NCBI GenBank assembly: GCA_945882415.1
Contig: CAMCWC010000005.1
Span: forward strand, 124,001 to 188,000
Direction of reading: 5' to 3'
Origin: Chthonomonas calidirosea
GTDB taxonomy: Bacteria; Armatimonadota; Fimbriimonadia; Fimbriimonadales; Fimbriimonadaceae
DNA length: 64,000 nt
This document shows positions 16,968-52,922 of the stretch, piece after piece. Every line of letters begins with the position of its first letter. The first letter of the stretch is position 1. The position numbers were made by a program, and so were the translations under genes. The notes below the pieces were generated by a model. The model was not told the DNA's origin, did not search any database, and was given only the letters and a program-made list of their open reading frames with translations.

Positions 16968-17010
16968 GTGTTGCATTCTGCGGCATCGCTCGTGTCATAC
17001 TCTTACGAAC

Positions 17011-17142
17011 TCTGGAGACAGCAGGTGGCTTAATAGCCTTAAGCGATTCGCAAGGATCGGCCCGCCGAGGGGATACAAGAGAATACGTTGGAGGTTCGCC
17101 TCGCACACGTCTCTGTCCTTCGGTTTGGGCAGGGGCTTTTTT
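17011..17142 (+). ncRNA. Ribosomal protein L10 leader with attenuator-like terminator
   Basis: The region before rplJ has the known L10-leader signature: GACAGCAGGTGGCTTAATAGCC, then CCCGCCGAGG about 40 bases later, which together form the kink-turn-like site bound by the L10(L12)4 complex. Downstream, CTCTGTCC (17111-17118) pairs with GGGCAGGG (17127-17134, two G-U pairs) and is followed by six T (17137-17142). This would be an attenuator ahead of the rplJ start. Autoregulation by L10 is established for this leader class; the attenuator is my reading. Confidence 0.78.
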
Positions 17143-17175
17143 GTTGCCGAAGGCTTCCGAGAAAACAGGAGCAAT

Positions 17176-50234: not shown

Positions 50235-50327
50235 AGTCGTGTCAGAGGATACCGCCGAGGCCGGAGTGAGAAAGTCCGATCTCGCCCCCTTTTCTTTCGT
50301 GTATAGTTTTGATGGCGATAAAGCCAA

Positions 50328-50441
50328 GCGCTTAATCTCTGGTTTCAGAGAGCGGGGGAACCGTACTTATAGGGGTGAATGAGGCAGAAATGCCGCTAGG
50401 GGAGCTCTTGACCCGAACCCGACAGCTAACTCCGTAAGCGA
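50328..50441 (+). ncRNA. c-di-AMP riboswitch (ydaO-yuaA class)
   Basis: The sequence follows the ydaO aptamer core: CGCTTA (329-334 of this kilobase) pairs with TAAGCG (50435-50440) as P1; a CTCTG/CAGAG hairpin is followed by GAGCGGGGGAACCG, then GGGGTGAAT, TAGGGGAGCTC and CCCGAACCCGACAGCTAACT. These are the most conserved blocks of the class, in the right order. Known members bind c-di-AMP and turn off expression of cell-wall hydrolase and potassium transport genes. Here the next plus-strand gene is hisB, about 235 bases downstream. Confidence 0.88.
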
Positions 50442-50677
50442 TGTGAGAGTCGAATCTCGTGCACGAAGCAGGTTGAATGACCTGCGGATAGGCGGAACAA
50501 CGATGTTCTTTCGGCGAGTTTGTGACCCTTGCCTTTGTCGTTTTTCGGGGGCGCGACCGATGGGTCTCGACGAAAGTGGCTTCGATGTTGAAGTCCGAGG
50601 CGAGCACTTTTCCTAGCGCACCCGTTTTTTTGCCTCGCTGGCCCGTTCGGAAAGGGGCGTTAGAGTAGATTTAACGG
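50442..50677 (+). promoter_or_regulatory. Expression platform and leader between the riboswitch and hisB
   Basis: This stretch holds a GCAGGT/ACCTGC hairpin (50468-50485). A long-range stem joins CGGGGGCGC (near 50546) to GCGCACCCG (near 50616), with one mismatch, followed by seven T (50625-50631), which looks like an attenuator. A 37-residue open frame (50503-50616) lies inside, with a purine-rich GGCGGA before its ATG. I do not count it as a proven gene. Confidence 0.5.
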
Positions 50678-51280
50678 ATGGCAAAGTCTGCACCGGGCGT
50701 CCGCTACGCCGAACTGGAACGCGAAACGCATGAAACCCGCGTGACGGTGGTTTTGGATCTTGATGGCGGAACGCGGCAAGACATCTCGACCGGAGTCGGC
50801 TTCTTCGACCACATGTTGCAGCTCATGGCTTTCCATGGTCAGGTCGACCTCGGACTCACGTGTGAAGGCGACCTGGAGGTTGATGATCACCACACGGTCG
50901 AAGATTGCGGAATCGTGCTTGGGCAGGCATTCGCCCACGCCATTTCGGACGAGAAGAGCATTCAGCGTTACGCCAGCAATCACACGCCGATGGACGAAGC
51001 GCTGGTCTTGGTGGCACTCGACATCAGTGGTCGCGGGATTCTTGGCTATAACGTCAACTTTAAGCGAGAAAAGATTGGGGATCTCTCAACGGAGTGCGTG
51101 CGGGAGTTCTTCCGGGCATTCACAACTCACGCCAAAGTGACCTTGCACATTCATCAGATCGCCGGTGAGAACGATCACCACATCTGTGAGGCGATCTTTA
51201 AGGGCTTTGGACGAGCGCTGAAATTTGCGGCGGAGAAGTCGGAGCGACGCTCAAGTTCTACCAAGGGTAAGCGGGACTGA
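50678..51280 (+). CDS. hisB: Imidazoleglycerol-phosphate dehydratase
   Basis: A 200-residue single-domain HisB (no phosphatase half), step six of histidine synthesis. The manganese-binding motifs are GVGFFDHMLQLMAFHG, DLEVDDHHTVEDCGIVLGQA and AGENDHHICEAIFKGFGRAL. It leads a hisB-hisH-hisA cluster and lies downstream of the c-di-AMP riboswitch leader. Confidence 0.97.
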   Translation: MAKSAPGVRYAELERETHETRVTVVLDLDGGTRQDISTGVGFFDHMLQLMAFHGQVDLGLTCEGDLEVDDHHTVEDCGIVLGQAFAHAISDEKSIQRYASNHTPMDEALVLVALDISGRGILGYNVNFKREKIGDLSTECVREFFRAFTTHAKVTLHIHQIAGENDHHICEAIFKGFGRALKFAAEKSERRSSSTKGKRD

Positions 51281-52652: not shown

Positions 52653-52922
52653 ATGTTTCCTGTCGAAAATGTCGCCATCATGATCCCGATTCTCGCACTG
52701 CTGATTCCGGTGGTCGCGATTCTTACGAAGCACCAGCAGAGAATGGCCGAACTCATTCATGGCGGTGAACAAAATCGCCAATCTAGCCAGGAAATGCTTG
52801 CCTTACGGCACGAAATTGCAGAACTTCGCAGCCTCGTGCACCAGCAGTCAATCGCGGTAGATAACTTGGTCAGCCGGTCGGTGGTTTTGCCATCCGAAAC
52901 CGTTGAGCAGCGACTGCGCTAA
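52653..52922 (+). CDS. Small membrane protein with coiled coil
   Basis: An 89-residue protein: one membrane helix (IMIPILALLIPVVAILTK, residues 9-26), then HQQRMAELIHGG and a coiled coil (EMLALRHEIAELRSLVHQQS). The layout recalls PspB-like proteins, but I cannot confirm that family. It lies between hisA and rpoB, in the same direction. Confidence 0.7.
   Translation: MFPVENVAIMIPILALLIPVVAILTKHQQRMAELIHGGEQNRQSSQEMLALRHEIAELRSLVHQQSIAVDNLVSRSVVLPSETVEQRLR

Follow-up and report, generated by a model that had tools for sequence, protein, structure and literature searches.

Results

The window analyzed here is a 64,000-nucleotide stretch of a Chthonomonas calidirosea contig, in which a c-di-AMP (ydaO/yuaA) riboswitch aptamer (50319–50454, forward strand, as are all features of the RNA described below and hisB) is preceded by the divergent gene sucD and followed by hisB. 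The aptamer matches RF00379 with 88.2 bits (cut-off 38; E = 2.9e-19) over the full length of the model (positions 1–134), is the sole match to this family within the 3.36 Mb assembly, and has 134 of its 136 bases in common with a sister genome. The same genome encodes a CdaA-type diadenylate cyclase (DAC, E = 1.6e-40) with a CdaA_N domain, adjoined by a YbbR/CdaR-like gene. Judged by family membership, that is, by the RF00379 score together with the cyclase, we take the element to be a genuine c-di-AMP riboswitch. A first-pass annotation, which would have abandoned its ydaO call for want of either an RF00379 score or a cyclase gene, was right on the aptamer, although its start at 50328 lies about 9 bases too far downstream. 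Riboswitches of this class usually control an adjacent coding gene in cis, for example one for a cell wall hydrolase or a potassium transporter. The next coding gene here is, as had been annotated, hisB (imidazoleglycerol-phosphate dehydratase, 50678–51280; PF00475, IGPD, E = 2.6e-64). Further along, between hisA and rpoB, an 89-residue membrane-anchored coiled protein without a Pfam family is encoded at 52653–52922; it is conserved in the family, duplicated in some members, and found directly behind the riboswitch RNA in two genomes (G061 and G062). The window also contains a ribosomal protein L10 leader (16994–17151; 48.3 bits, cut-off 44).

Read from the sequence, the window copy of the riboswitch RNA would span about 318 nt from promoter to terminator (about 50314–50631). 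A −10-like TATAGT at 50302–50307 is its inferred promoter; the stretch 50303–50318 is 94% identical to the sister genome, and scanning with the consensus turned up no complete sigma-70 site. The transcript most likely starts at the 5′ terminal hairpin GGC-GATAAA-GCC (50314–50325), which is conserved in relatives, many of which carry it as GGCTGCAAAGCC just before the aptamer start or overlapping it. Since sucD is divergent, the aptamer should have a transcript start of its own. Behind the aptamer, a hairpin GCAGGT..ACCTGC (H1, 50468–50485) is predicted by folding, and in relatives its arms differ and yet remain complementary when the alignment is inspected by eye. Two further hairpins, H2 (GGAACAACGATGTTCT, 50494–50509) and H3 (GGCTTC..GAAGTC, 50578–50595), covary, both with two-sided changes that keep their pairs: H2 scored 0.565 across 20 genomes against 0.213 for shuffles, and H3 was scored across 11 genomes; in neither case did any of 500 shuffles reach the observed value, but both hairpins had been chosen with pairing in mind, which biases the test in their favor. 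H3 is enclosed by a predicted terminal stem formed by CGGG-G-GCGC (50546–50554) and GCGC-A-CCCG (50616–50624), and the stem is followed by seven T (50625–50631), the tail of a putative intrinsic terminator and 3′ end of the RNA; this stem, followed by T, is predicted in the window genome (G000) and the sister genome (G015) alike. The folding energy of 50455–50631 is no better than that of shuffled sequence (z = 0.22), so the case for structure rests on comparison and not on energy. No other Rfam family matches 50250–50700 at E up to 1, which rules out that the RNA is a noncoding RNA already in Rfam, and no clear switching helix was found in the window copy.

The pairwise comparison of G000 with G015 delimits the RNA. 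The start block is 94% identical, the aptamer 99% and 50455–50631 91%. Conservation stops at the seven T, with 41% identity in the 29 bases directly behind them, and identity is back at 94% over the last 17 bases ahead of hisB (50661–50677). Because silent sites are about 57–71% identical (59% at the third codon positions of hisB) as against 91–99% for the riboswitch RNA block, the block is under selection, and for this reason the RNA is probably still in use in the window lineage. The 17 conserved bases form a promoter-like block of hisB, with a TAGAGT 11 bases before the ATG, and many relatives have a GGTATAA-like box about a dozen bases before the hisB start, as in a leaderless gene. hisB is probably leaderless or nearly so, and it is probably a neighbor in a separate transcription unit and not the target of the riboswitch. 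As for the possible attenuator with seven T proposed in the first pass, the T-run is there, but its best interpretation is the 3′ end of the RNA, not a switch for hisB.

An arrangement of this kind recurs in metagenome-assembled genomes (MAGs) of the Fimbriimonadales as a unit made of a c-di-AMP aptamer, a variable structured middle, GCACCTCCTG and an intrinsic terminator, and it is present at most once per genome. RF00379 is carried by 74 of the 85 genomes of the family, and the unit stands behind a subset of the family's aptamers. Its middle stretch, about 50–190 bases long, varies strongly in length and sequence, too much for RNAalifold to find a consensus structure in the whole 28-sequence alignment. 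Behind GCACCTCCTG, usually with GTTGAG, comes a strong GC hairpin with a T-rich tail. Of 117 aptamers of the family, 38 have the motif CACCTCCT no more than 600 nt behind them, as against 2 of 994 background windows taken from these loci. An automated motif rule picked out one locus in each of 46 genomes; a strong hairpin comes next in nearly all of them, and three look doubtful (G032, G053 and G066). Elsewhere in the relatives' genomes the full GCACCTCCTGTTG is rare, and the ten other loci that we read lie inside apparent coding sequence. The comparative set is composed mostly of MAGs, in which genes were taken from simple ORF calls with homology support.

The conserved block ends before hisB, and what follows the unit varies among relatives. 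Roughly half of the copies in the family have hisB behind them. In the other copies this place belongs to a gene for a small membrane protein with rpoB next in line (G061, G062), to a dnaK-like gene (G036) or to others. In four genomes the gene behind the unit is convergent, namely upp (G017, G019, G022) or a gene for a DUF2231 protein (G005), and the convergent-gene case rests on these four, as the remaining opposite-strand entries are unverified frames and were left out. In front of a convergent gene, an element acting on the gene downstream would not be expected. What would characterize a riboswitch-controlled noncoding RNA of the Rli55/EutX kind is that the aptamer leads into a conserved noncoding RNA which ends at a terminator of its own, whatever the neighbor, and the sequences display this arrangement.

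The 3′ end of the RNA reads GCACCTCCTG(TTGAG) in most relatives, with the intrinsic terminator directly behind. As the 16S rRNA of the source genome ends in GGATCACCTCCTTAAGG, the CACCUCCU contained in this motif is the anti-Shine-Dalgarno (anti-SD) sequence. A sequence complementary to the Shine-Dalgarno (SD) and placed beside an intrinsic terminator, as expected for an anti-SD seed, is thus found in the relatives and not in the window copy. G000 and G015 both lack CACCTCC; they have instead CACCCG (50619–50624), which aligns with GCACCTCCTG as its diverged counterpart and lies inside the terminal stem, and a second terminator seen in relatives has decayed in both. The window and sister copies are, by alignment, a diverged form of the relatives' RNA, and an anti-SD role cannot be claimed for the window copy. 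For the relatives, the presence of the anti-SD sequence in most of these RNAs suggests that c-di-AMP acts through a regulatory RNA. An exact search for targets with CAACAGGAGGTGC returned the RNA itself, and the ten other loci read were all in apparent coding sequence; among the loci read, and with only exact matches scored, no extended complement fell outside coding frames. An intramolecular GGAGGTG–CACCTCC pairing was also considered and rejected as not conserved, being present in G012, G020 and G022.

Seven of the eight genomes of a sister family (f38) carry a related unit composed of an aptamer, a first terminator, a conserved RNA, ACACCTCCTGAC or TACCTCCTGAC, and a second terminator. At the loci looked at, the gene behind it codes for a PPIC/SurA-like peptidyl-prolyl isomerase (PPIase). 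The first terminator is an ordinary one at about +60 after the aptamer; next comes a conserved stretch with GTCAGG, which is complementary to CCTGAC, and then ACCTCCTGAC and the second terminator. Between the 3′ strand of the aptamer and the 5′ arm of terminator 1 an antiterminator-like helix is possible, which clearly beats arm shuffles in three of the eight genomes and does so weakly or not at all in the others. Judging by its elements, the layout is that of a classical ydaO attenuator with the RNA as its putative product, and it is this attenuator-like layout that speaks for an effect of the ligand on production of the RNA. To see how widely the unit is distributed, a pattern scan with one range of spacing was run over ~85,000 GTDB genomes. 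It yielded 18 stretches, of which 16 are labeled Armatimonadota or a group within it. Two matches were discarded as evidence of an origin outside the order: one in Scrofimicrobium is a chance match inside a coding frame, and one labeled 'Phycisphaerae' lies on a contig that around the unit hardly differs from a contig of an Armatimonadetes MAG (the pair L220 and L221) and is probably misbinned or mislabeled. Behind c-di-AMP riboswitches of the rest of the phylum, no such 3′ element was found in the sample examined.

Other c-di-AMP riboswitches in these genomes are followed by small proteins, which we record separately. A protein of ~100–120 aa (cluster c3; 16 genomes; L084, L074, L112, L010 and others) stands behind some other riboswitches of the family and is related to Thoeris anti-defense 1 (Tad1; 8kbb, E = 5.2e-6) and to the phage family phrog_2428 (E = 2.4e-17); as a cyclic-nucleotide-binding protein placed under a c-di-AMP riboswitch, it could be a chromosomal c-di-AMP binder. 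A helical protein of ~95 aa starting with MLTEFEVRRRM, similar in both families and with no Pfam match above cut-off, is found behind riboswitches at L049, L025 and L047 and, in f38, at L227, L229, L230, L231 and L242. Two more sets of small orphan proteins, clusters c12 and c13, are encoded shortly after aptamers. Finally, in a genome of family f39 (G239, L236, about 1500–1900) an aptamer is followed immediately by a frame beginning MCGIACAIR, presumably an asparagine-synthase-type amidotransferase.

Discussion

We conclude that the c-di-AMP aptamer probably heads a separate, monocistronic noncoding RNA (about 50314–50631), in most relatives likely a small RNA of the anti-SD type, and that hisB is probably transcribed apart from it. 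The reading builds on an aptamer followed by a conserved and covarying block that ends sharply at a T-run and recurs with changing neighbors. The RNA would be made from its own promoter and ended by its own terminator at the T-run, and is likely to act in trans by pairing with the ribosome-binding sites of mRNAs. Binding of c-di-AMP would set either the amount of RNA or whether its seed is free. The usual logic of ydaO riboswitches is that the terminator forms when c-di-AMP is bound; in f38 ligand binding would thus allow terminator 1 to form and turn the RNA off. In the window copy and that of G015, the seed would have turned into the CACCCG within the terminator stem. Transcription, response to the ligand and base-pairing in trans are all inferred from sequence comparison.

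The first-pass annotation had left three options, namely control of the histidine genes, control of a tiny protein or RNA, and loss of the true target. We favor the RNA because the transcript block ends at the T-run, hisB has a promoter-like block of its own, and the neighbors in relatives are unrelated or convergent. Cis control of hisB-hisH-hisA, in which c-di-AMP would stop the polymerase at the seven T and readthrough would express the genes, agrees with hisB being the next gene after roughly half of the copies, over several genera and with sucD divergent upstream, and with the terminator-like stem and T7 at the end of the window RNA. In free folding, the CACCC of the terminator can also pair with GGGGUG of the aptamer core in G015, and less so in G000. 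Nevertheless, a non-conserved gap separates the T-run from the promoter-like block of hisB, a strong second terminator stands before hisB in many relatives, the unit precedes unrelated or convergent genes in relatives and the PPIase gene in f38, and the linkage may be mere inherited gene order; we consider this explanation quite unlikely. We would give still less weight to a small protein translated under riboswitch control from the 37-codon frame noted in the first pass. This frame is indeed open in the window (50503–50616), and some relatives of the same genus have a purine-rich stretch and an ATG there, with similar first 15–20 residues (DTCLCG-like). However, a 1-base indel in G015 breaks it and alters the C-terminal part, stops occur after 2–10 codons in G001, G003, G008 and G021, the ATG is missing in G009, G017 and G020 and falls within the covarying H2, and several genera lack the region while keeping CACCTCCT and the terminator. 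With the frame broken, stopped or absent in this way, a conserved small ORF is unsupported. Most improbable of all is a relic whose true target is gone and whose riboswitch and leader are decaying in the window lineage. It is true that this lineage no longer has its relatives' anti-SD motif or second terminator, but the identity of 91–99% in the block, next to about 57–71% at silent sites, indicates selection, and with the stretch from aptamer to T-run still conserved, loss of a target is improbable.

A different use of the motif would be as an expression platform in cis, in which, without c-di-AMP, CACCUCC would form six base pairs, including one G-U, with the GGGGUG of the aptamer core. Free folding predicts this pairing for about a dozen genomes out of 47, and the CACCC of the window copy has lost the anti-SD sequence while retaining complementarity to GGGUG. 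The pairing is a minor one in most genomes, however, with a mean probability of 0.25; the conserved GCACCUCCUG is longer than it needs to be for such a helix, and only in the window lineage does the motif on its own reach into the terminator. We regard this model as possible but doubtful. Cis pairing and a trans seed could also be combined as a ligand-gated seed. In a more far-reaching reading, one molecule would sense c-di-AMP and carry a masked copy of the 16S anti-SD sequence; when the ligand is absent, the seed would be held by the GGGGUG of the aptamer core or the RNA would not be made, and ligand binding would change that state. This we put forward as an unlikely case, which, if true, would let the c-di-AMP level exert broad control over translation initiation in the Fimbriimonadales.

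Known targets of c-di-AMP are proteins and, in cis, the leaders of mRNAs. Should a riboswitch for this ligand prove to have a conserved small RNA as its product, this would add a route to genes in trans, and would do so with a compact unit present at most once per genome. In the open-access literature we found neither a c-di-AMP riboswitch with a small RNA output nor work linking Fimbriimonas and riboswitches, and, as far as we found, there are no small RNA studies in the phylum.

The element resembles ydaO/yuaA riboswitches (RF00379) in the sequence and structure of its aptamer over the full model, in the cyclase encoded by the genome, and in the attenuator behind the aptamer in f38; it differs in its output, apparently a noncoding RNA in place of a downstream protein gene such as that of a wall hydrolase or a potassium transporter. 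In the Rli55 and EutX systems, the ligand controls the synthesis of a riboswitch-headed noncoding RNA whose hairpins bind, and thereby sequester, an ANTAR protein. Both RNAs, from Listeria and Enterococcus, respectively, are controlled by B12 riboswitches and are cited in PMC7266159. They share with the unit described here a riboswitch at the head of a separate noncoding RNA, but the ligand here is c-di-AMP and not B12, and the conserved output is an anti-SD sequence, which points to RNA–RNA pairing and away from protein sequestration. SreA and SreB of Listeria are trans-acting SAM riboswitches (Loh et al., 2009, as cited in PMC7266159). There, as here, a riboswitch RNA is proposed to pair with a distant mRNA; those RNAs are, however, terminated leaders of protein genes, whereas the present unit stands alone, with its own conserved 3′ motif and terminator. 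RsaE and FsrA are C-rich small RNAs of the anti-SD type from Firmicutes. In them, too, an exposed CCUCC-like seed lies beside an intrinsic terminator, and what sets the RNA of the Fimbriimonadales apart is the ligand-binding aptamer, which they do not have.
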